NCBI GenBank assembly: GCA_017431745.1
Contig: JAFRKK010000010.1
Span: forward strand, 62,001 to 126,000
Direction: 5' to 3'
DNA: 64,000 nt
Source of the DNA: Candidatus Saccharimonadota bacterium
Lineage (GTDB): Bacteria; Patescibacteriota; Saccharimonadia; Saccharimonadales; Saccharimonadaceae
In this document: in pieces, positions 4,119 through 42,952 of the stretch
How the letters are laid out: every line of letters begins with the position of its first letter
Position numbering within the stretch: position 1 is the first letter of the stretch
The notes under the pieces: generated by a model
Told to the model about the DNA's origin: nothing
Seen by the model: only the letters and a program-made list of their open reading frames with translations
The model's database searches: none
Made by a program: the position numbers and the translations under genes

Positions 4119-4382
4119 ATGAGTAGTAATAACAAGAAAAGTGATGATAATCGGAAAAATGTAACGAAAACGGTGGTGAAAAGTGCAGCTGCGGGTGCGC
4201 TTGAAAGTGTAGTTGATCAAGCCGTTAATAATGTCGTGCCGACGCGAGCGGCGGTGCATCAAAAGTTTTCTGATATTGCGCGAAATGTGCCAGTGCTAGG
4301 CGATGCGATTGATATTGGGCAGAAGGCGAGCTACCTTGGATACCTAGGTAAGCTCTTTGGGAAGAAGAAAGACAAGAAGTGA
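4119..4382 (+). CDS. Small basic hypothetical protein, 87 aa
   Basis: The protein has a lysine-rich N-terminus, a central amphipathic region (about residues 22-60) and a very basic tail (F-G-K-K-K-D-K-K). It has no clear TM helix. An AGGGAG site lies just before the ATG, and a TATAAT-like box is about 25 nt upstream. The DUF362 gene follows after 30 nt. Function unknown. Confidence 0.6.
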   Translation: MSSNNKKSDDNRKNVTKTVVKSAAAGALESVVDQAVNNVVPTRAAVHQKFSDIARNVPVLGDAIDIGQKASYLGYLGKLFGKKKDKK

Positions 4383-4412
4383 TATAATTGAAATAGAATT
4401 GGAGGAGGAAAA

Positions 4413-5297
4413 ATGACTGCGAAAGTCTATTTTACAAAAGAGATTACACCTGAAGGATTGCAAAAAGTATTTGATGCTTTGAAGGTGGAGTTACCCGGTA
4501 AGGTTGGAGTGAAAGTGTCGACAGGTGAAAAGGGGGCAAAAGGGTATTTGAAGGCGGACCTAATTGGGCCGTTTGTTAAGGGTTTGAAAGGGACGATTGT
4601 AGAATGTAATACTGCTTATCCTGGTGCTCGCAATAAAGCTTCGGACCATATGAAAGTGGCGGAGGAGCATGGTTTTACGTCGTTTGCTGAAGTTGACATT
4701 ATGGATGCGGAAGGGGAGATTAAGATTCCGTTTGAGAAGGGGAAGCATTTGAAATATGATTTAGTGGGTTCTCATTTTGACAATTATGATTCGTTTGTGA
4801 ATCTTGCGCATGGGAAGGGGCATATGATGGGAGGATTTGGTGCGAATTTGAAGAATCAGTCGATTGGGTTTGCATCGCGAAATGGTAAGGCATATATTCA
4901 TTCATGTGGGAAAACCAAGAGTCCAAAAATGTGTTGGGTTTTGAAGCACGAACAGATTGATTTTATTGAGTCGATGGCGGAAGCTGCGACAGCGGTGGCG
5001 GATTATCTTGAGGAAAAGGGGAAACCGATTGTTTATATTACTGTGATGAATGCACTTTCGACATCATGTGATTGCGATGCGGAGCAGGATGACCCAGTGA
5101 TGGAGAACTTGGGGATTGTGGCGTCGGTTGATCCGGTGGCAAATGACCAAGCATTTATTGACATGGTGTGGGCGTCAAAGGATCCGGGTGCGGAGGCTTT
5201 GAAAGAGCGGATTGACTCTCGGCTTGGGCGTGAGATTTTGCCGTATGCGGAAAAGCTTGGGCTTGGCAAAAGGGAATATGACTTGATTGAGATCTAG
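4413..5297 (+). CDS. DUF362 domain protein
   Basis: The 294-residue protein resembles DUF362 proteins, which are often fused to ferredoxin modules. Matching features are an N-terminal V-G-V-K-V-S-T-G-E, C-N-T-A-Y-P-G near residue 65, a G-G-x-G-A-N-L-K segment near 140, and a late V-D-P-V-A-N-D. No ferredoxin domain is attached, but C-D-C-D near residue 215 and other cysteines could bind metal. A GGAGGAGG site precedes the ATG. The biochemical role of the family is not established. Confidence 0.8.
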   Translation: MTAKVYFTKEITPEGLQKVFDALKVELPGKVGVKVSTGEKGAKGYLKADLIGPFVKGLKGTIVECNTAYPGARNKASDHMKVAEEHGFTSFAEVDIMDAEGEIKIPFEKGKHLKYDLVGSHFDNYDSFVNLAHGKGHMMGGFGANLKNQSIGFASRNGKAYIHSCGKTKSPKMCWVLKHEQIDFIESMAEAATAVADYLEEKGKPIVYITVMNALSTSCDCDAEQDDPVMENLGIVASVDPVANDQAFIDMVWASKDPGAEALKERIDSRLGREILPYAEKLGLGKREYDLIEI

Positions 5298-5359: not shown

Positions 5360-6118
5360 CTAGTCGGAAGTGTTCCAGCTAGGTAGAAGACTAACAAGGT
5401 CGTAGGCGGTTTGGTCTTTTCTGATGGCATAGTTGGTATGGCCGCCGGAATATTCGTCGTAGCTGCTGCCGCCGAGAATCGTGGTAACATCTTTGACACC
5501 GTCGATACGGTGAGCATTGTAGTTCTTATCATTTAGGATAGCATAAACACGGAGCATGTCTATGGTGCCATCTTCCATGAGGAAGAAGATGTATTCATCA
5601 CCAACACCTTGTCCGAAACCGGCGATTTTTGAAGAGAGGGCTTTGCGACTAAAAGGGACAGTGATAGTGTAGTCATAGTTTTTGATGTCGTAGTAGCGGT
5701 CGACGACTTCTTTGTTGAACGTGATTTTAGCTTGCTTGCCGTCGGTTTTATCGATTTCGATTTTGGCAATTTTCTCGAAATCGGAGTTTTCCGAATCGGA
5801 TTCAGAAAGTTCGGTGAGAGTGTAGCTGAAATTCTTGCGAGCATTCAATATCTTAGAGTTTGGGATTTTGCAATAATCGGCACCGGGAATTTGGTCTTTG
5901 ACACAGTCAAGAGTGCCAAGAGGAGTGTTTTGAGTGAAAGTTTCGGATTTTTCGTCGTCATCAGTGTTGGCAGTGGGAGGTGGCGTAATAGTGCTGTCCT
6001 TACTCCAAGAAATTTCATTAGGTTTATTGAAAAAGAGGAAATAGATTCCTCCGCCGATAATCACTAGGATAAGAATCGCGATAGTGACAATATATGGGGT
6101 GTTACTTTGTTTTGTCAT
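5360..6118 (-). CDS. Membrane-anchored hypothetical protein
   Basis: The 252-residue protein has one N-terminal TM helix (about residues 9-31), a Thr/Pro/Asp linker (about 42-62) and a large extracytoplasmic domain with one cysteine pair (about 69 and 79). It belongs to the class of TM-anchored proteins common in this window. An AGGAGC site precedes the ATG and a TATAAT-like box lies upstream near 6147. Function unknown. Confidence 0.65.
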   Translation of the reverse strand: MTKQSNTPYIVTIAILILVIIGGGIYFLFFNKPNEISWSKDSTITPPPTANTDDDEKSETFTQNTPLGTLDCVKDQIPGADYCKIPNSKILNARKNFSYTLTELSESDSENSDFEKIAKIEIDKTDGKQAKITFNKEVVDRYYDIKNYDYTITVPFSRKALSSKIAGFGQGVGDEYIFFLMEDGTIDMLRVYAILNDKNYNAHRIDGVKDVTTILGGSSYDEYSGGHTNYAIRKDQTAYDLVSLLPSWNTSD

Positions 6119-6471: not shown

Positions 6472-6753
6472 ATGTCCTTTTCGACGAGATCTCCTTTTTC
6501 TAACCTGTTAATTAGCGAATTTAGTGAGTCCGTCGCGAATGAAAACGGGCAAGACTATTCAATTATGGTCGAGGGTGAAACCACGGCCGGCTATTTCTGT
6601 CAGCTTATGGTGAATCCTCAAGAAGTCGCTAAGATTTTTGTCGATTACGACTATGCGCTTTATCGTGTTCTCGGCGAAGATGCGCCGGACGCTATGTGGG
6701 AAGATTTAGGTCGAAAGTTTGGATTAGAGCATGTTTGCTCGGTGGATCTATGA
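6472..6753 (+). CDS. Hypothetical protein, 93 aa
   Basis: The soluble acidic protein has a helical C-terminal half (about residues 45-85). No Shine-Dalgarno is evident before the ATG at 6472, and the upstream sequence contains a second tRNA-like tail (GGTTCGAAACC...CGCACCA, about 6445-6465). It is convergent with the GIY-YIG gene 8 nt away. Codon use is balanced and the frame is open, but no family is recognised. Confidence 0.45.
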   Translation: MSFSTRSPFSNLLISEFSESVANENGQDYSIMVEGETTAGYFCQLMVNPQEVAKIFVDYDYALYRVLGEDAPDAMWEDLGRKFGLEHVCSVDL

Positions 6754-6761
6754 AAGACGAG

Positions 6762-7454
6762 CTATTTTTCTATCTGGTTTCTAATCGTAGTTAGACGTTG
6801 ACCTTTATATAGCCAATATGCGCCACCTTGATATGCTTCTGAACTAGTAGCGGTGCCCAGCCTGCGCTTAACAATGGCTACTGCACGAGAAAGTGTCGCC
6901 TTTGTTCCATCTTGAAGTTCAATTACATTTGTTTCATTAACAACGGTTGCTTTAACGGCGTCGTTTTCAGAAAAGGATAACTCCGCCCCAATAGGTATTC
7001 TGAGTAATCTGAATGTAAGTTTTGCTTTAGTGACTACTCTGGTATTTTGATTATCTGGTATTTTATTACTTTGACCGCACGAATCATCTGAATTATGCTC
7101 TTTTAAAATTGATTCAGAATTTAGACGATTATTATAAGTTTCAATCGATGCATCGTCCAGTGTTCTCGCGCATTCTCTAAATATACTTAGTGCTTTTTCT
7201 GGAGTAACATTAAAAAACTCACGGCCTTTTCTGATGCGCATGTCTGGATTAACAATATCTATGAGGTGGTGTATTTGCTTCTCGGCTTCGTCATACTTTT
7301 CAGTTTTTAGGACTGCATATATTTCGAACGGAAGCGGTACGGCCGTATTGTCTAGTTCTTTTGAGCGAATATTGACTGGGCGAGAACTTTTTCCGATTTT
7401 AACCCAGTCGTCTCTGAAACTTGGATTCGTCAAAATATAAACATAGCCGTTCAT
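6762..7454 (-). CDS. GIY-YIG nuclease, T5orf172 type
   Basis: The 230-residue protein opens with a T5orf172-type GIY-YIG domain (residues 3-90): G-Y-V-Y-I-L-T-N, then V-K-I-G-K-S-S-R with the catalytic-type arginine, and an E-x-x-x-H helix. After a linker (about 105-140) comes a C-terminal domain with W-L-Y-K-G, as in DUF4357-like tails. Such proteins occur in phage and defence regions as DNA endonucleases. A TATAAT at 7465-7470 lies 10 nt before the ATG, so it probably has its own promoter separate from the R-M pair behind it. Confidence 0.75.
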   Translation of the reverse strand: MNGYVYILTNPSFRDDWVKIGKSSRPVNIRSKELDNTAVPLPFEIYAVLKTEKYDEAEKQIHHLIDIVNPDMRIRKGREFFNVTPEKALSIFRECARTLDDASIETYNNRLNSESILKEHNSDDSCGQSNKIPDNQNTRVVTKAKLTFRLLRIPIGAELSFSENDAVKATVVNETNVIELQDGTKATLSRAVAIVKRRLGTATSSEAYQGGAYWLYKGQRLTTIRNQIEK

Positions 7455-7509
7455 AATAGTTAATATTATACCATAGTTTACTGATTATTCAAAGGAGACA
7501 CCATCTACG

Positions 7510-8733
7510 TTACAGCAGTATATTGGCGGAAGTAACACGCCTTTTATGTTTTTCTAGATAATCACGCATATTTTCATTATAGTGTTCGTGTTTTATATGG
7601 AAATGCCCACCTCGTATTTCGCCGACACTAGTTAGATCTTCTGAATAAACGTTTCCAATAGTTTTAAAGGAGTGATCAATATATGGTCTGTCGGTTGGTT
7701 CGTTGGAAAGACGGCCGATTTGTAGTGTTGAATCACTAAAATAAATTATGCCATATTCGAACATTTTGTCGTGATTAGCGCATAGCCAGAAGCCATTATC
7801 TCCGTCTGTCGCTCTGCGATTCTTTTCTGCATCATCATAATGTATATTATGATCAATATCAGTAACGCGTTCAATGTGAGATCCGATTATCATGTGTTCC
7901 ATATCGCAACCACAAATATAACACCTCTTGTCGCCATACTTCTTGAGCAAATTATAGTGAAAGACTGGGGTATCTCGACTGGTATCTCGTGTTGACGATG
8001 AGGCTGTTCTTCCGCCGGGAAGAAGCTCGATTTTTTCTCCAAAATCTACACCCTCTTCTTCGAGTACTTCGCGTTGATCATCTGACAATGCGGTAGAGTC
8101 ATTGTCGAGAACTTGATAGAAAACCACTATTTTTGAGCTGATTCGGGCTAGCGTAATAGCAAAAATAAAAGACTCCATTGCATTAGCTCCGAATGTCTTT
8201 CCGTAAATAGAAATCTGATTAGCGTATTCATCGCTCTCGTCTACGAAAAAAGTTTGTCTATTATGCGAGTTTCTATCACTGGTTTTATTTCGATATGCTT
8301 TTAGATCTTCGTACGAGTTGAAAGGATGGATATCGGTTAACTGAAGTTCGTCCGTGTTGAGAATATTAATGCCAATAGTGACAAAACAACGATAAAAGAG
8401 TTTGGCATAATCCGTACGGTCGTTCCTATCTGGTCTAATGATGTATATATCAAAAGTTTTGTTATTATTTGGATCCTTTTTAAATTCTATATATGCAGGG
8501 GAGACGAATTGCATCAAACGCGCGTTTCTTGAATCATTGTCTGGATTTGAAAGACAAACATAATGTATGCTACCATCATCTGTGTTTTTAACTTTTACAT
8601 AACGCCCGATTCTGCGCGCTTCTGACGACACGACATAGTTTGAAGTATGATGAATTCTTTGCACTATAGCAAGGACGATGTCGTCGCTTAAACTGGCGAC
8701 TGGCCCTCTGTCCGGAAGTACGACTTCAATCAT
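7510..8733 (-). CDS. Probable type II restriction endonuclease, HNH family
   Basis: The 407-residue protein has an HNH fold in its C-terminal part (about residues 268-335): a zinc-type C-Y-I-C-G-C, then I-I-G-S-H-I-E-R-V, and F-W-L-C-A-N-H-D-K-M-F. The order Cx2C...SHI...NH matches the HNH_2-like restriction nucleases. The N-terminal 260 residues have no recognised domain and likely recognise the target site. Its ATG overlaps the stop of the upstream methyltransferase by 4 nt (8730-8733), the coupling expected of a restriction-modification pair. Confidence 0.8.
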   Translation of the reverse strand: MIEVVLPDRGPVASLSDDIVLAIVQRIHHTSNYVVSSEARRIGRYVKVKNTDDGSIHYVCLSNPDNDSRNARLMQFVSPAYIEFKKDPNNNKTFDIYIIRPDRNDRTDYAKLFYRCFVTIGINILNTDELQLTDIHPFNSYEDLKAYRNKTSDRNSHNRQTFFVDESDEYANQISIYGKTFGANAMESFIFAITLARISSKIVVFYQVLDNDSTALSDDQREVLEEEGVDFGEKIELLPGGRTASSSTRDTSRDTPVFHYNLLKKYGDKRCYICGCDMEHMIIGSHIERVTDIDHNIHYDDAEKNRRATDGDNGFWLCANHDKMFEYGIIYFSDSTLQIGRLSNEPTDRPYIDHSFKTIGNVYSEDLTSVGEIRGGHFHIKHEHYNENMRDYLEKHKRRVTSANILL

Positions 8734-10604
8734 TTGTTATTCTCCTTATTATAATTAGTAATTAAAATTTCTTTCCTACCTTTTCTTGCGGCCTTACTAT
8801 ATTCAATAACGTTATAATTATTCTCTTTGATCCAGCTATCTAGCAGGTCGTTATGCTTTCCATTGTGATCTAATACGTTAGATAACATAAACTTAATACC
8901 TTTGCGGTTGGCTTTATTGAGAAATGTATAGAGTCGTTTTTCGTCAGACTCATCCCAGCCATTAAAACCTCTTTTGCCATCATTGTAACTTCCGAGCGTA
9001 ATAAGGTATGGTGGATCGCAATACAGGAATGTTCCATCCTCAAAATATTGTTCCATTTTTTCGAAATCACCGGAGCAAATTAGGAGGTTTTGTTCTTGTA
9101 TTCGTCGGCAGAAGCTAATTAGCTTTGACAACATAACATCATTAAAACCAGCAGGGCCAACTGGATTGTTGCAGTCATATGAAGAATTAAAACGTATTTG
9201 TTGATTAAAACCGTACATAATTAAGACGTATAGCATTTTCAAATTACGCCTATCTAAGGGCGTGGCGTTATACTTATCGCGCAATTTAAGGTATGCTTCT
9301 TTTGCGCCGGGCTCTAATTTGTATCTTTTTACGGTTCGAGTAATATATCTAACAAGTTCGGCAGTGTCAGTGTTTTTAAAGCACTCTAGGAGTCTGGCTA
9401 CTATAAAATTAAAATCGTTATAAATAATTTGCTCCGCTTCTATATTTGCCCCAACACTGTAACCACCGCCAAAAACATCTATGAAGCGTTGAATATTTTT
9501 ATTTGGTAGGTTGTTTTTTATGAAGTCCACCAAATCATACTTGCCGCCCTGATAATTCAACGGTGACGCATACTTTGCTTCTAGATATGGTTTTTTCTCA
9601 ATGAAGAATAAATATTCACAATGTTCATCATTAGAATATGTCTGATGATTACGATATTTTTTGTATGGTATCTTTTTCAGATAGTACGTTTCTTCTTTTC
9701 CATATCGTTTTAATGTGTTTTCTATGTATTTTTTTGACATTAATCCGTCGGAGCTATAACTCAGAATGATATATTTAAAGTCTGCTTTTGCAATTATGAA
9801 ATCAAAAACCTGTTCGACTTCTCCTTGTCGTGAGAATGCGGAAGAAGTTTCGGAAGTATTTCTAAGGCCGCCTTTCCCACTTATCGCTGGGTTATCATAT
9901 CTAGCAATAGTTTCTAGTAAATGGTACTGAACGGAATATTGATTTTTTGTATAGGGTGGATCTAGGTAGAGAATATCGCCACTAACTTCGCAGATTAGTT
10001 CTTCAATAGTTTCATTCCTTACTTCGCTTTCGCATATTGGATTGGATCGGGTTGATTCAACATGGATAAACGGCATTCGTTTGACGGCTCTAGGATCCCA
10101 TTTTTTTAAGTATGATCCGTATACCCCAGCAATATTGGCAACTTTAGATGCAGATTCGATTAGAGCCGCCAGAAGATAATAGTATTCTTTGTCGTTGATT
10201 TTTTCATCTTTGCGCCAGCTTTCTATTTTAGTGCGAATAAAATCAATTCGTTTGCCATTTTCAGAAGAGAAATACATTCTGTTTCCACTTCCGCCGTCAG
10301 AATATTCATTGAATATAAACCCCTCGATACCGTTATTGGTATTATTGAAATAGTCAAATGGATCCAGACCCAATTTAGGAAAAGTCATATCTGGAGTATT
10401 TAGCTTTGCGTACGTTATGACATAACTATAGTATTGGATGTCGTTGGCGGTTATGCGGAATTTATCTTTAAAATAGTCCCCCACGGCCGCAGTCCCACTG
10501 AAAGCGTCGCAAAATGTAAGGTTAGAGTCGTTTAAAATTCCTTGCTGTTTTATGAAATCAGCAATTTCGGGGAGAAGATCTGTTTTTGCACCTATATACC
10601 TCAT
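8730..10604 (-). CDS. Fused double adenine-specific DNA methyltransferase (type IIS-like)
   Basis: The 624-residue protein contains two D12-class N6-adenine methyltransferases in tandem. The first has D-A-F-S-G-T-A near residue 33 and the catalytic DPPY near 216; the second has Y-Q-G-G-K and D-V-F-G-G-G near 350-380 and a second DPPY near 531. Two fused Dam-like modules, as in M.FokI, usually modify opposite strands of an asymmetric site. It is the first gene of the R-M operon. A TATAAT at 10616-10621 lies 11 nt before the ATG. Base composition is more AT-rich than flanking genes, which suggests transfer. Confidence 0.85.
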   Translation of the reverse strand: MRYIGAKTDLLPEIADFIKQQGILNDSNLTFCDAFSGTAAVGDYFKDKFRITANDIQYYSYVITYAKLNTPDMTFPKLGLDPFDYFNNTNNGIEGFIFNEYSDGGSGNRMYFSSENGKRIDFIRTKIESWRKDEKINDKEYYYLLAALIESASKVANIAGVYGSYLKKWDPRAVKRMPFIHVESTRSNPICESEVRNETIEELICEVSGDILYLDPPYTKNQYSVQYHLLETIARYDNPAISGKGGLRNTSETSSAFSRQGEVEQVFDFIIAKADFKYIILSYSSDGLMSKKYIENTLKRYGKEETYYLKKIPYKKYRNHQTYSNDEHCEYLFFIEKKPYLEAKYASPLNYQGGKYDLVDFIKNNLPNKNIQRFIDVFGGGYSVGANIEAEQIIYNDFNFIVARLLECFKNTDTAELVRYITRTVKRYKLEPGAKEAYLKLRDKYNATPLDRRNLKMLYVLIMYGFNQQIRFNSSYDCNNPVGPAGFNDVMLSKLISFCRRIQEQNLLICSGDFEKMEQYFEDGTFLYCDPPYLITLGSYNDGKRGFNGWDESDEKRLYTFLNKANRKGIKFMLSNVLDHNGKHNDLLDSWIKENNYNVIEYSKAARKGRKEILITNYNKENNK

Positions 10605-38268: not shown

Positions 38269-38343
38269 GGGGCCGTCGTTCAACGGATAGGACATATCCC
38301 CTCTAAGGATACAATGCAGGTTCGATTCCTGCCGGCCTCGCCA
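38269..38343 (+). tRNA. tRNA-Arg (UCU)
   Basis: The 75-nt cloverleaf has acceptor GGGGCCG/CGGCCTC, anticodon stem TATCC/GGATA with loop CCTCTAA (TCT), T arm GCAGG/CCTGC, CCA encoded. It lies directly before the DGR cassette. Confidence 0.94.
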
Positions 38344-38382: not shown

Positions 38383-38411
38383 TGGACAATGGGTGGGGAG
38401 TGGTGTATAAT
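38383..38411 (+). promoter_or_regulatory. Promoter of the DGR target gene
   Basis: TGGACA (38383-38388) and TATAAT (38406-38411) with a 17-bp spacer. Transcription should start near 38418, giving a leader of about 75 nt. Confidence 0.85.
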
Positions 38412-38493: not shown

Positions 38494-40134
38494 ATGAAGA
38501 GCGCGAAGAAGTGCGGAGTCACTTTAGCAAAAATAAGTATAAGAAAAAAGCTGAACAAGCTATGGCATAAGCGATGTTCCAGCGCCGGTATGTTTTACAC
38601 TTCTTCTGCCGGCGCTGTGACCTCGCTTATTTTGTGTGCTGTGCTTTGTGGAGCGTTTGGTTTATTTGCTGGGGCCGATCAGGCTTCCGCTACGGCCTCT
38701 ACACTCACTATTTCGGTTGCGGAATCTGTATCTCTTAGTATTTTGGCTAATGGTACGACTGGTACCTTTGCTACGTCAGATACTAGTACTAATAATATCA
38801 GCGTCAAGACCACTAATGGCACCGGTTATACACTAGGCATTAAAGCTAGCACTGAAGGCAGTAATACTCTAAATGGGGCGAATAGTGCTAGTATACCATC
38901 CCATACAGTTACAGCGGGAGTTAGTGAATCTAATTATGGTAATGATAGCTATGCGTCAACTAATAACTTGAACAATACCTGGGGCTATAGACCATCTAAA
39001 CTGAACTCTAGCGCAAACAGTAACTATCTTCCGGGCCCGACAAGCGCTTCTACGCCAGTCACTCTGGATAAAACGTCCGTATCTAACCCGTCTACGGCTA
39101 ATAACTATAACCTGGCTATAGGGGCTAGAGTGACCAGTAGTGTTGTTTCGGGAACGTACAGTAACACCTTTGTCATAACTGTAGTAGCTAATCCGTCCAT
39201 TTATTCCATCACTTACAATAAGAATACTACAGACACCGTATCTAATATGCCAAGTAACGTAGTAAACCAAGAAACTTCTAGTGAAACAGTTCCCCTAGCA
39301 AGTAATACTCCAACTAGAACTGGTTATACCTTCCAGGGTTGGTGTACGGCTCAAGTAGCTGATGGTGCTGACTGTACTGGTACTTCCTACGCAGCAGGCA
39401 GTAACTGGACTATAGACCAAACCGCCGCTTCCAACTCTCTTACCCTTTATGCTAGATGGAAGGCTTCATCTAACCAATACTGTACGGATTGGTCTACTTG
39501 TATGCAAAACACCACCAGTACAAAACCAGCTTGTGGTACTACTATGACTGATGGTCGTGACGGTAACACCTACACTACTGCTACCATCGGCGGAGTTTGT
39601 TGGATGACCCAAAACCTCAGATTCCAAGGCACAGACCTCAAAGTAGACGAATCAGACGTAACTTCACCTGTGACCTTGACACCGTATAGTCTAGATAAAA
39701 ATGATTCAAGTTATACTAACCATTGTGATAATACTAACGGTTATAACTATGCTTGCACCAAACTCTCAACTGACACTAACTACGGGGCTTATTATAACTA
39801 CTGTGCTGCTAGTGCCGGTGAAGTCTGCAACAATAGCACCAAAGCCGATGCCACTAGAAGTATCTGCCCGGCTGGCTGGAAGCTCCCAACTCAGACTCAA
39901 TTAAATGCAGTACCGAGTAAGGATTCGCACTTTACAGCTGCAGCTGGTCTCGCCGGGAACTACTACGGCGGTACGCTGAACAACGCTGGCTCCTACGGTA
40001 GCTGGTGGGGCTCTACTGCGTATAGTGCTACGTATCAGTACAGCCTCTACTACAACAAGGACTACGACTTCTGGTTCGTCATCAGCCTCTACAAGTACTA
40101 CGGGTACTCAGTTCGGTGCGTACGCGCCTCGTAG
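38494..40134 (+). CDS. DGR target: surface protein with FISUMP (C-type-lectin-like) variable domain
   Basis: The 546-residue protein has a basic N-terminus and hydrophobic export helix (about residues 37-62), a Ser/Thr/Asn-rich beta region (about 65-225), an InlB-type repeat (about 230-325, G-Y-T-F-Q-G-W and L-Y-A-R-W) and a FISUMP domain (about 340-546) with C-W-M-T-Q-N-L, I-C-P-A-G-W-K-L-P-T and a final S-V-R-C-V-R-A-S. The last 65 residues are encoded by the variable repeat. In C-type-lectin-fold DGR proteins this part forms the ligand-binding face. It is probably displayed on the cell surface, binding changing partners; that is inference from known DGR targets. Confidence 0.9.
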   Translation: MKSAKKCGVTLAKISIRKKLNKLWHKRCSSAGMFYTSSAGAVTSLILCAVLCGAFGLFAGADQASATASTLTISVAESVSLSILANGTTGTFATSDTSTNNISVKTTNGTGYTLGIKASTEGSNTLNGANSASIPSHTVTAGVSESNYGNDSYASTNNLNNTWGYRPSKLNSSANSNYLPGPTSASTPVTLDKTSVSNPSTANNYNLAIGARVTSSVVSGTYSNTFVITVVANPSIYSITYNKNTTDTVSNMPSNVVNQETSSETVPLASNTPTRTGYTFQGWCTAQVADGADCTGTSYAAGSNWTIDQTAASNSLTLYARWKASSNQYCTDWSTCMQNTTSTKPACGTTMTDGRDGNTYTTATIGGVCWMTQNLRFQGTDLKVDESDVTSPVTLTPYSLDKNDSSYTNHCDNTNGYNYACTKLSTDTNYGAYYNYCAASAGEVCNNSTKADATRSICPAGWKLPTQTQLNAVPSKDSHFTAAAGLAGNYYGGTLNNAGSYGSWWGSTAYSATYQYSLYYNKDYDFWFVISLYKYYGYSVRCVRAS

Positions 40135-40152
40135 TATGGCTCGTAGCCCCTA
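39939..40152 (+). repeat. DGR variable repeat (VR), 214 bp
   Basis: The VR aligns without gaps to the TR at 42331-42544 (minus strand). I count 19 differences in 16 codons, and each is at an adenine of the TR; no other base differs. All affected codons are AAC or AAT in the TR and read Tyr, Ser, Phe, Ile or Leu here. The stop codon lies within the VR; its last 18 bases, identical to the TR, are beyond the gene and form part of the homing end. Confidence 0.97.
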
Positions 40153-40174
40153 AGCCCTCCACCGGAGAAACATT

Positions 40175-40197
40175 CGCTCCGGCCCGGGGCCGGAGCG
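40175..40197. repeat. Hairpin just past the VR (target-recognition hairpin)
   Basis: CGCTCCGGCC-CGG-GGCCGGAGCG is a perfect 10-bp stem with a 3-nt loop, 22 bp beyond the VR. In the Bordetella phage DGR a similar GC-rich hairpin after the VR is needed for efficient retrohoming. No T-run follows, so it is not a normal terminator. Confidence 0.85.
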
Positions 40198-40212
40198 ATA
40201 AAAGGAAAAAAG

Positions 40213-41130
40213 ATGGAAGAAAAGACAAAAGAGAAAAAAGAAAAGAAAGATTTGGGTAAAGCAGAAGTAAGAAAAATTCTGCATGGGGGGAACAGCGATG
40301 GAGTGATCAACGGCAAAGAGCACAACAGTCGGGGACGGGGACGTTCGCCGGAGGAAAAACGGAAGTCGTACGCTGAGTATCGCGAGCGCAAGAAAAAAAT
40401 TATAGAGTTTGAAAAAACCAATGATCGGTATTTGGCGTTGTGGCCGGCGTCGGATAAAGATACAAATAAGGAACATACTTTTTATAATATGGGTGGGACT
40501 TCGGCGATTATTTATGTGCACGAGATAGGGCCGAGGCTAAAGCGAAAGCCGACATTGCGTCATGATATGGATCATGGGAATAAAAGTGAGAAGTTCCACA
40601 GCGGGATTTGTTCGATTGCGGATTTGGACAAGTTGACGGAAAAATTGGCGGGGATTGGGATAAAACGGGCGAAGACGAAAGACAAAGATTTGGTGCTTTT
40701 TAAACTGAACCGAGAATATCCTCATGCTGAAGTAGTGGAAATGTTGAAGCAAGAACAGAAGAGGGTGGATGCACTGAATAAGGTGATTTATGCAAAGGTA
40801 TTGCATCCAGACATTCATAAGCAAATTTTAGAGTTGAAAAAGTTAATCCCGCCAAAAGTAAAGAACATGGATAAGACTTATCGTGAAGTGATTGGGATGG
40901 AGTTGATAAAAACTTTGATGAATTTGACGCGTCTTTATTCGCAGATGGCGCATGGCGATATTGACGAGAAAGAAGGAGCTAGGAAAATAATGTTAGAAGC
41001 TGACATGATTTTGGAAGAAACTTCGTTGATGAATGAATTGCATCTATGGGAAGTAGCTTTTTGCATTAGAATAGCAGATATAACGAATGGTTTAAGACAA
41101 TTGGTGAAAGGAAAGATACTAAATAAATGA
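40213..41130 (+). CDS. DGR accessory protein: MutS-like (MSL) and Avd-like regions fused
   Basis: The 305-residue protein has a very basic N-terminal arm (residues 1-70), a middle region (about 75-190) with F-Y-N-M-G-G-T-S-A, R-H-D-M-D and F-H-S-G-I-C-S-I that resembles the MutS-like accessory proteins of some DGRs, and a helical C-terminus (about 195-305) shaped like the four-helix Avd protein that binds the reverse transcriptase. Its stop overlaps the RT start (ATGA, 41127-41130), so the two are cotranslated. The MutS-like and Avd-like assignments are by pattern only. Confidence 0.65.
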   Translation: MEEKTKEKKEKKDLGKAEVRKILHGGNSDGVINGKEHNSRGRGRSPEEKRKSYAEYRERKKKIIEFEKTNDRYLALWPASDKDTNKEHTFYNMGGTSAIIYVHEIGPRLKRKPTLRHDMDHGNKSEKFHSGICSIADLDKLTEKLAGIGIKRAKTKDKDLVLFKLNREYPHAEVVEMLKQEQKRVDALNKVIYAKVLHPDIHKQILELKKLIPPKVKNMDKTYREVIGMELIKTLMNLTRLYSQMAHGDIDEKEGARKIMLEADMILEETSLMNELHLWEVAFCIRIADITNGLRQLVKGKILNK

Positions 41131-42263
41131 GATTGACTGATTCATCAAATAATGAATGGCTGAGAAGTTATGAAAACCAGTTACTATTTGAATTATATGT
41201 GGCTTATATTGTAGCAAGGCGGGGCGGTAAGCGCGGTACTTTTGACGAACATAAATTTGAGGTGAACGAATTTGAGAATCTGGTGAATTTGCGAGATTCG
41301 CTGCTTGATAAGACTTATCGTCCTTCGAGAGGGACGGCGCACATTATCCATAATCCGGTGATTCGGGAAATATTTGCGGCGTCGTTTCGGGATAGAATTG
41401 TACACCACTGGATTTATGATAATGTCTATGATTGGTGGGATGCAAGATTTATTTATGATTCGTATAGCTGTAGAGAAGGCAAGGGGACGAAATTTGGGAC
41501 AGATAGATTAAAGTATCATATACAATCGGCTTCGGATAATTATAAGAAAAAGGTTTGGGTAATTAAGCTAGATGTTCAGGGTTATTTTATGAGTTTACCG
41601 CGGGGAAAATTATATGAGCGGGCGATATGGGGATTAGATAGACAATTTGAGGGGAACTATGGAAAGAAATATGAAATGCTGAAGTTTCTTTGGGGGCAGA
41701 CGATATTTGATGATCCTTGCCGTGGTGTGAAAAAGAAAGGTTGGCCGTATGAGTGGATGGATTTGCCGGATTCAAAAAGCCTTTTCAAACAACCGCCTGG
41801 GGTAGGGATTGTGATTGGAAATTTGACTTCGCAACTTTTATCCAATATTTATTTGGATCAGTTAGATAGGTATATTGTGTTTGATTTGGGGTGGAAACAT
41901 TATGGGAGATATGTGGACGATTTTTATATCGTGGTGACGGAAGAGGAGTTGCCACGAGCGATAGCAGACATTGAAGCAATTCGGAGGTACTTGGCGCGGA
42001 TAGGTTTAACTTTGCATCCGCATAAAGTATCAATTCAGCCGGCGGATCGGGGCGTGGAGTTTTTAGGTGGGGTGGTTTATCCTGGGAGAGTGCATCCAGG
42101 GAAAAGAATCGTGAAAAATGCGAGGAAGGCGTTTAATGAAACGGTGGCTGGAGTACGGGATGTGAAGTCTGTGGTGTCGTATATGGGACATATGAAATAT
42201 TTTTCGCATGAGAAGCTCCTAAGTGAGTTGTTCGAAATGGTGGGGTGGGAATACCAATTTTAG
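41127..42263 (+). CDS. DGR reverse transcriptase
   Basis: The 378-residue enzyme has RT motifs in order: R-D-R-I-V-H-H near residue 90, the catalytic-strand V-I-K-L-D-V-Q-G-Y-F near 148, I-G-N-L-T-S-Q near 230 (the Ser-Gln of DGR-type RTs), the catalytic Y-V-D-D near 262, and F-L-G-G near the end. No intron maturase or endonuclease domain is attached. It copies the TR RNA with errors at adenines, and the cDNA replaces the VR. It overlaps the accessory gene by 4 nt. Confidence 0.96.
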   Translation: MRLTDSSNNEWLRSYENQLLFELYVAYIVARRGGKRGTFDEHKFEVNEFENLVNLRDSLLDKTYRPSRGTAHIIHNPVIREIFAASFRDRIVHHWIYDNVYDWWDARFIYDSYSCREGKGTKFGTDRLKYHIQSASDNYKKKVWVIKLDVQGYFMSLPRGKLYERAIWGLDRQFEGNYGKKYEMLKFLWGQTIFDDPCRGVKKKGWPYEWMDLPDSKSLFKQPPGVGIVIGNLTSQLLSNIYLDQLDRYIVFDLGWKHYGRYVDDFYIVVTEEELPRAIADIEAIRRYLARIGLTLHPHKVSIQPADRGVEFLGGVVYPGRVHPGKRIVKNARKAFNETVAGVRDVKSVVSYMGHMKYFSHEKLLSELFEMVGWEYQF

Positions 42264-42270
42264 CAGTTTG

Positions 42271-42299
42271 TTAGAGGAGGCTTTCAAAGCCTCCTCTAA
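42271..42299. repeat. Perfect 14-bp inverted repeat between RT and TR
   Basis: TTAGAGGAGGCTTT (42271-42284) and AAAGCCTCCTCTAA (42286-42299) flank a single C. It lies 32 bp past the TR 3' end and 8 bp after the RT stop. It may end both transcripts or protect the 3' end of the TR RNA; T-runs are missing. Confidence 0.85.
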
Positions 42300-42330
42300 A
42301 CCTCCACGATTTTAGAATAAGATGCGAGTC

Positions 42331-42544
42331 TAGGGGCTACGAGCCATACTACGAGGCGCGTACGCACCGAACTGAGTTCCCGTTGTACTTGTTGTTGTTG
42401 TTGACGTTCCAGTTGTCGTTGTCCTTGTTGTAGTTGAGGTTGTACTGATTCGTAGCACTATTCGCAGTAGAGCCCCACCAGTTACCGTTGGAGCCAGCGT
42501 TGTTCAGCGTACCGCCGTTGTAGTTCCCGGCGAGACCAGCTGCA
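42331..42544 (-). repeat. DGR template repeat (TR), 214 bp, inverted
   Basis: The TR reads on the minus strand, opposite to VR, accessory gene and RT. In the VR frame it contains 20 AAY codons, 16 of which are changed in the VR. This concentration of AAC codons is typical, since mutation of the two A positions reaches many amino acids without making stops. The translated minus strand is not a real protein. Confidence 0.97.
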
Positions 42545-42931
42545 CTGACAAGCAAATACGAGCTGCTTATCTATATTTTATAGATGCCGTGTGGAGGAGA
42601 CGACTTGCTTGGGAAATGCTCGTAACTTTACGGTATGGTTAGTGAAGCAACTGCTCGAACGTGACGAAGTAGCACCACAACTACTTGAAGTTTATAAAAC
42701 CCCAGGTTGAGACAACTCTTTAACGTTACAAACAGCAACTGTTAACGGGCATAGAAGTCGCTTAGAACCTTTATACTCCTTGAAGCAAAAAGGCGTAGAT
42801 GACCTGGAGTTATCTTCCAGGGGACTTCTGCCCTCCACCTTATTCATGCGGTCGGTTGGCGATGTGCCTGAAGTGGCATGCAGATACTACCTCGCGGCCG
42901 GGGGTCAGTCATAATAAATGATGCCCCCTCA
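42545..42931 (-). ncRNA. Hairpin-rich region upstream of the TR, probable 5' part of the TR RNA
   Basis: No credible gene is present. On the minus strand a TATAAT (complement of 42938-42943) would start a transcript near 42931, beginning with a GGGGG...CCCCC hairpin. Further hairpins include CCTGGA/TCCAGG, AAGTAG/CTACTT, AACAG/CTGTT and TGCC/GGCA. Close to the TR, AAGCAA/TTGCTT and ACGAGC/GCTCGT pairings interleave as in a pseudoknot. It matches neither RNase P RNA nor tmRNA signatures. Read on the plus strand the end hairpin could be a terminator instead, so strand is uncertain. Confidence 0.5.
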
Positions 42932-42952
42932 TGTTTTATTATAACATTTTAA

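Follow-up and report, generated by a model that had tools for sequence, protein, structure and literature searches.

How does a diversity-generating retroelement (DGR) provide its reverse transcriptase (RT) with template RNA when the template repeat (TR) lies downstream of the RT gene and on the opposite strand? A locus of this kind is found in the window analysed here, a stretch of 64,000 nucleotides from a Candidatus Saccharimonadota genome (GCA_017431745.1; assembly of 744 kb, 97% complete). In the literature that we covered, the making and priming of DGR template RNA are known in detail only for BPP-1. In its TR RNA, a structured, RT-recruiting, self-priming spacer follows the TR on the 3′ side, and synthesis is stopped by a motif on the 5′ side (PMC12875486). 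For the window, we consider the model set out below, a DGR whose template RNA comes from a transcription unit of its own that converges with the RT gene, to be highly probable as a whole.

A complete DGR with a FISUMP target

The locus is certainly a complete DGR. Its TR (42331–42544, minus strand) and variable repeat (VR; 39939–40152, plus strand) form an inverted pair with 91% identity, the VR comprising the final 65 codons of the target gene and 18 nt beyond the stop. The original prediction of a gap-free 214-bp pair, with 19 mismatches in 16 codons and all of them at TR adenines, was reproduced on ungapped realignment (214 columns) and recount. All 19 differences fall on a TR adenine (A>T 15, A>G 3, A>C 1) and the 152 positions with another base are all unaltered; the probability that 19 random mismatches would all hit the 62 adenines among 214 bases is 6e-12. 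The changed codons had been described as nearly all AAC or AAT; in fact every one of the 16 reads AAC or AAT in the TR, out of 20 such codons there. A-specific TR/VR pairs were found again throughout the related loci.

The tract at 40106–40152 (plus strand), common to both repeats and mismatch-free beyond 40105, is by analogy with BPP-1 a candidate initiation-of-homing (IMH) region. An 11-bp palindrome 21 nt 3′ of the VR (40174–40198), which has no T-run on the plus strand, may act in homing as a stem-loop, and an invariant 3′ tract with a downstream palindrome is likewise a feature of BPP-1. In the proposed mechanism, cDNA would replace the VR guided by the invariant tract, and perhaps by the palindrome, so that up to ~20 Asn codons could be rewritten in a lectin-like domain of a surface-type protein.

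The target gene (38494–40134, plus strand) encodes an N-terminal membrane/signal segment, a List_Bact repeat and a C-terminal FISUMP domain that carries the VR. A putative sigma-70-like promoter (TGGACA-17-TATAAT; 38383–38411, plus strand) precedes it, a consensus match at 11 of 12 positions in a pattern scan. The FISUMP assignment, made earlier from the bare sequence, is borne out by TIGR02145 (E 7e-17) and Pfam Fib_succ_major (E 4e-10). The companion idea of a C-type-lectin-like fold fared less evenly. For the predicted structure of the VR domain (pLDDT 86), Foldseek returned nothing significant (E above 3), while in a structural second look most of the matched chains were C-type-lectin-like (Z 5–7), the DGR variable protein TvpA (2Y3C, Z 7.1) among them, which is supportive of that fold but not decisive. 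A host-binding role of the target protein, suggested with the original prediction, is conceivable. A tRNA-Arg(TCT) gene at 38269–38343 lies directly 5′ of the target promoter and could mark an island boundary.

As had also been predicted, an accessory gene (40213–41130, plus strand) and an RT gene (41127–42263, plus strand) lie between the repeats, their ORFs overlapping by ATGA. The RT matches PF00078 (E 1.5e-12) and phrog_1423 (E 5e-73), and the DGR-type motifs [IVL]GxxxSQ and YxDD are present as IGNLTSQ and YVDD. The check proposed with the original prediction, a search of the RT against the DGR clade, supports the DGR reading: with a profile of 14 related RTs, the best match and closest PDB entry is the BPP-1 DGR RT (8UB7 set, E 3e-40), and retron-type and group II RTs follow at E 1e-12 or weaker, the class being assigned from profile E-values and motifs.

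No Pfam family matches the accessory protein above the cut-off. The AF2 model of the protein (pLDDT 88) comprises an additional alpha/beta part upstream of residue 194 and a four-helix bundle (residues 194–305) that aligns with Avd (4DWL, 8UB7) at Z ~15 over 104–107 residues with an rmsd of 1.8–1.9; helical bundles give matches easily, yet Avd ranks first in Foldseek and agrees with the context. On this model, the C-terminal part of the accessory protein has an Avd fold. Together with the RT it would copy the TR into cDNA, with errors opposite adenines. Among its relatives, six match PF01381, and an XRE-type helix-turn-helix is seemingly N-terminal in the accessory ORFs of L066, L067, L069, L075, L076, L079 and L085.

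The same genome holds a second complete DGR on contig C6 (L041; VR 5576–5836, plus; RT 6699–7841, plus; TR 7867–8127, minus) and two further FISUMP paralogs of the target (L042:8382–9989 and L043:5944–7743), which have VR-like 3′ ends and no TR nearby. These two are 78% and 71% identical to the TR of the window (TR1), with many non-A changes. Because 12–16% of their non-A positions differ, we rejected them (V3/V4) as present TR1 targets. They also serve as a measure of decay: TR and VR in the window differ at no non-A position, against that 12–16%, and the reading frames of the RT and the accessory protein are uninterrupted, with catalytic motifs present, which makes a decayed or inactive element very unlikely. 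The DGR is presumably active at present.

An antisense template repeat with a probable transcription unit of its own

TR/VR pairs were sought on any strand in Saccharibacteria-type genome loci and in 80 viral loci, and were accepted when at least 75% of the mismatches were at A. Over the accepted pairs, 93% of 1655 mismatches are at A, a fraction that is partly conditioned by this filter; orientation is unaffected by it. The TR is antisense to the RT and downstream of it for 66 of the 73 distinct Saccharibacteria-type TRs, at a median of 64 nt from the RT. Four of the remainder are sense and 211–348 nt downstream, and three are sense and upstream. The viral TRs show the reverse preference, 65 of 66 being sense and upstream. 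On the RT tree, the antisense state requires 6 changes, compared with 46 when labels are shuffled, and is thus clustered. An antisense TR is the rule for the Saccharibacteria-type clade, and in 55 of 73 loci the VR is on the strand opposite the TR. The relatives are mostly ruminant-gut Saccharibacteria. The genus of the window consists of reduced-genome bacteria that keep such RTs: a close RT is present in 56 of 99 genomes, with one to four each.

The sequence upstream of the TR points to separate transcription of the TR, convergent with that of the RT gene. Transcription would start from an extended −10 box (TGTTATAAT; 42938–42946, minus strand) and pass through a folded leader, which holds a three-way junction, before entering the TR. 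Across related loci, the extended −10 box (TGnTAWAAT) occurs 5′ of the TR in 26 of 71 leaders, versus 10 on the reverse strand and a shuffle mean of 1.7, and is separated from the TR by 170–390 nt of noncoding leader. The window leader (42545–42931, minus strand; 387 nt, its start placed from the −10 box) has a fold z of −2.6, and no ORF of at least 60 aa is confined within it on its strand. The original prediction had placed the TR on the correct strand, but overlooked the independent antisense unit with its structured leader; likewise, of the extent proposed for the element (38494–42544), the parts stand and the end does not, since leader and promoter carry it to ~42946.

The 3′ end of the TR RNA probably lies near a perfect palindrome (42271–42299) in the short flank between the TR and the RT stop. 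Read from the sequence, this palindrome has no long T-run and is a candidate bidirectional terminator between the convergent RT and TR units, which would set one of the two putative ends of the transcript. A point against the model is that classical terminators occur 3′ of the TR at only 7 of 72 loci; because they are so rare, TR RNA may extend into the RT gene as antisense sequence, where it could acquire a 3′ structure.

A conserved structured RNA 5′ of the template repeat

Comparative evidence indicates that the leader is a conserved structured RNA. In an alignment of seven leaders (L051, L053, L056, L106, L119, L123 and L129), both partners have changed in 11 of 20 pairs, a level that none of 500 shuffles reached, and the signal is lost on a slide by a single column. 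The MAFFT alignment A8 of distant cores misaligns the hairpins and was excluded from the counts. A covariance model built from the seven leaders, without the window sequence (R1), finds its best match of the whole 64-kb window at 42752–42874 on the minus strand (14.8 bits, E 0.02; E 1.3e-4 when only the leader is searched). With the window leader included, two-sided changes are seen at 15 of 20 pairs, again above all of 500 shuffles, in an alignment that is fitted to the model.

The core of the element (42753–42829, minus strand) is a predicted three-way junction of stem A (AGAAGUC/GACUUCU), hairpin B (CCUGGA/UCCAGG) and hairpin C with a CAAG loop, arranged as AGAAGUC-c-(CCUGGA..UCCAGG)-<GCCUUUUUGCUUCAAGGAGUAUAAAGGU>-GACUUCU with a descriptor score of 21. 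Further leader groups, aligned separately, share the plan: stem A of 7–9 pairs, hairpin B, sometimes an extra stem, then hairpin C and the second strand of stem A. Hairpin C is closed by a C(YAHG)G cap, in which the tetraloop is UACG, CAAG, UAAG or UAUG. At a score of 16, the three-way-junction descriptor matches 39 of 71 leaders (reverse strand 5, shuffles 1.6), and these controls carry the weight because the loop class and the descriptor were chosen after viewing leader groups. This rigid descriptor misses ~45% of leaders. A looser two-helix descriptor was dropped, as it matched 71 leaders and ~67–71 shuffles and gave no separation. The distance from junction core to TR ranges from 0 to 208 nt or more across loci, and is 208 nt in the window. 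This unevenness, like the share of leaders missed by the rigid descriptor, counts against the model.

The leader also moves together with the TR when the TR flips, as the sense-TR loci L099 and L105 have leader sequence in common with the antisense-TR loci L050, L113 and L116. In L060 (TR 9439–9698, VR 6859–7121) and L077 (TR 1790–2009, VR 4312–4531), it is the accessory-RT block that is inverted, a state that recombination between TR and VR as inverted repeats, or an assembly error, could explain; leader and TR remain together in both loci, and the core is recognised in L077 only.

Rfam searches of the window leader and the tested Saccharibacteria leaders returned no family matches, and a tmRNA or other known ncRNA in the leader was rejected. 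A counterpart is found in L142, the viral locus that best matches the Saccharibacteria-type RTs. Here Rfam RT-7 (RF03028, 132 bits) occupies 1961–2144, and the TR begins at 2140. RT-7 resembles the window leader in its outer 7-pair stem, two hairpins, three-way junction and position immediately 5′ of the TR, but differs in the loop of hairpin C. The RT-7 covariance model gives no match to the window leader even at E 10, its gathering score not being reached, and none to the Saccharibacteria leaders tested. In the viral loci, the descriptor is matched 5′ of the TR in 19 of 66 cases (reverse strand 0, shuffles ~2, 3′ side 1 of 66), a count inflated by the many viral loci that are near-copies. 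From RT-7 in L142 and these descriptor matches, it is probable that structured RNAs on the 5′ side of the TR are widespread; the Saccharibacteria leader is a new sequence family among them. The placement of RT-7 beside the L142 TR suggests that the RT-n motifs could be leaders of DGR template RNAs.

Riboswitches and attenuators sit in structured 5′ leaders behind a promoter, and the leader could be a cis-regulatory element of this sort that sets the level of TR RNA and stands outside the template machinery. We consider this unlikely, as phage DGRs have the same plan right beside their TR and strong leader-model matches occur only beside DGRs: a second covariance model (R2), run on 295 genomes of the family, gave six strong matches, all beside DGR RTs. 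R2 proved too strict: beyond the sequences used to train it, it yielded no additional leaders with useful E-values. The most likely role of the leader is that of the RT/Avd-binding part of the template RNA.

Priming and relation to known systems

As the RT/Avd-binding part, the leader would recruit or prime the RT, and it may also act as the 5′ stop. Going further, we tentatively propose that the template RNA of this DGR lineage is circularly permuted relative to BPP-1, with the RT-Avd-recruiting, primer-placing structure 5′ of the TR in a retron-like order, and with the three-way junction, which RT-7 displays in a phage DGR too, as a general DGR template-RNA core. A plausible alternative, which we hold below even likelihood, is that the leader is a roadblock that ends the cDNA at the 5′ edge of the TR, or an RNA stabiliser, and that priming depends on an unrecognised 3′ structure as in BPP-1. 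There, reverse transcription halts at a 5′-flank motif located in avd, and recruitment and priming fall to the 3′ spacer (PMC12875486). Synthesis must in any case begin 3′ of the TR, where terminators are as rare as described above, and RNA antisense to the 3′ end of the RT gene is one example of a structure that could serve. Two observations count against this alternative: the conserved three-way junction was found in none of 72 3′ flanks of TRs, and the window core, 208 nt from the TR, is far away for a precise stop.

The window DGR shares with BPP-1 the A-specific TR/VR differences, a DGR RT, an Avd fold and a VR at the C-terminus of the target. It differs in layout: in BPP-1 the TR is sense and upstream of the RT with a structured spacer 3′ of it, whereas here the TR is antisense and downstream, with a putative promoter of its own and the structured RNA on its 5′ side. 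The sense upstream TR with 3′ spacer of a BPP-1-type cassette is absent from the window locus.

DGR cassette patterns have been compiled (PMC6642488), and a rare "inverted" type (group 4), of which only three cases were known, has TR and VR together on the strand opposite the RT (Schillinger et al., 2012; PMC3521204). As in group 4, the TR and RT of the window are on different strands; unlike group 4, the VR is on the RT strand and the TR alone is antisense, which places the locus outside that group. DGR clade 2 of Roux et al. (2021; PMC8144416) is restricted to Patescibacteria and comprises cellular CPR DGRs. The window DGR is also a cellular CPR DGR, a likeness by host type. The words strand, orientation and noncoding are absent from the main text of that paper. 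Judged against the part of the literature that we covered, a DGR template-RNA layout with an antisense downstream TR, its own promoter and a 5′ leader is new.

Outside DGRs, a structured RNA 5′ of the template is also seen in the msr-msd RNA of retrons. The likeness to the window goes as far as this position; neither the 2′-OH priming nor the a1/a2 pairing of retrons finds support here.

With its stand-alone antisense TR, compact conserved 5′ RNA and short 3′ flank, the clade is well suited to a clean test of the RNA parts that a DGR requires, and its layout makes the start of DGR copying testable. The stand-alone TR unit is possibly a separable template for directed diversification, and the leader RNA can be used to search for template RNAs of DGRs. 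Another conserved leader, CATAGGTYRYCCGTC...GGGAAAAA...GGTGRCAACCG, was observed 5′ of the TR in gut-phage DGRs (L168–L219), and its outer stem apparently covaries.
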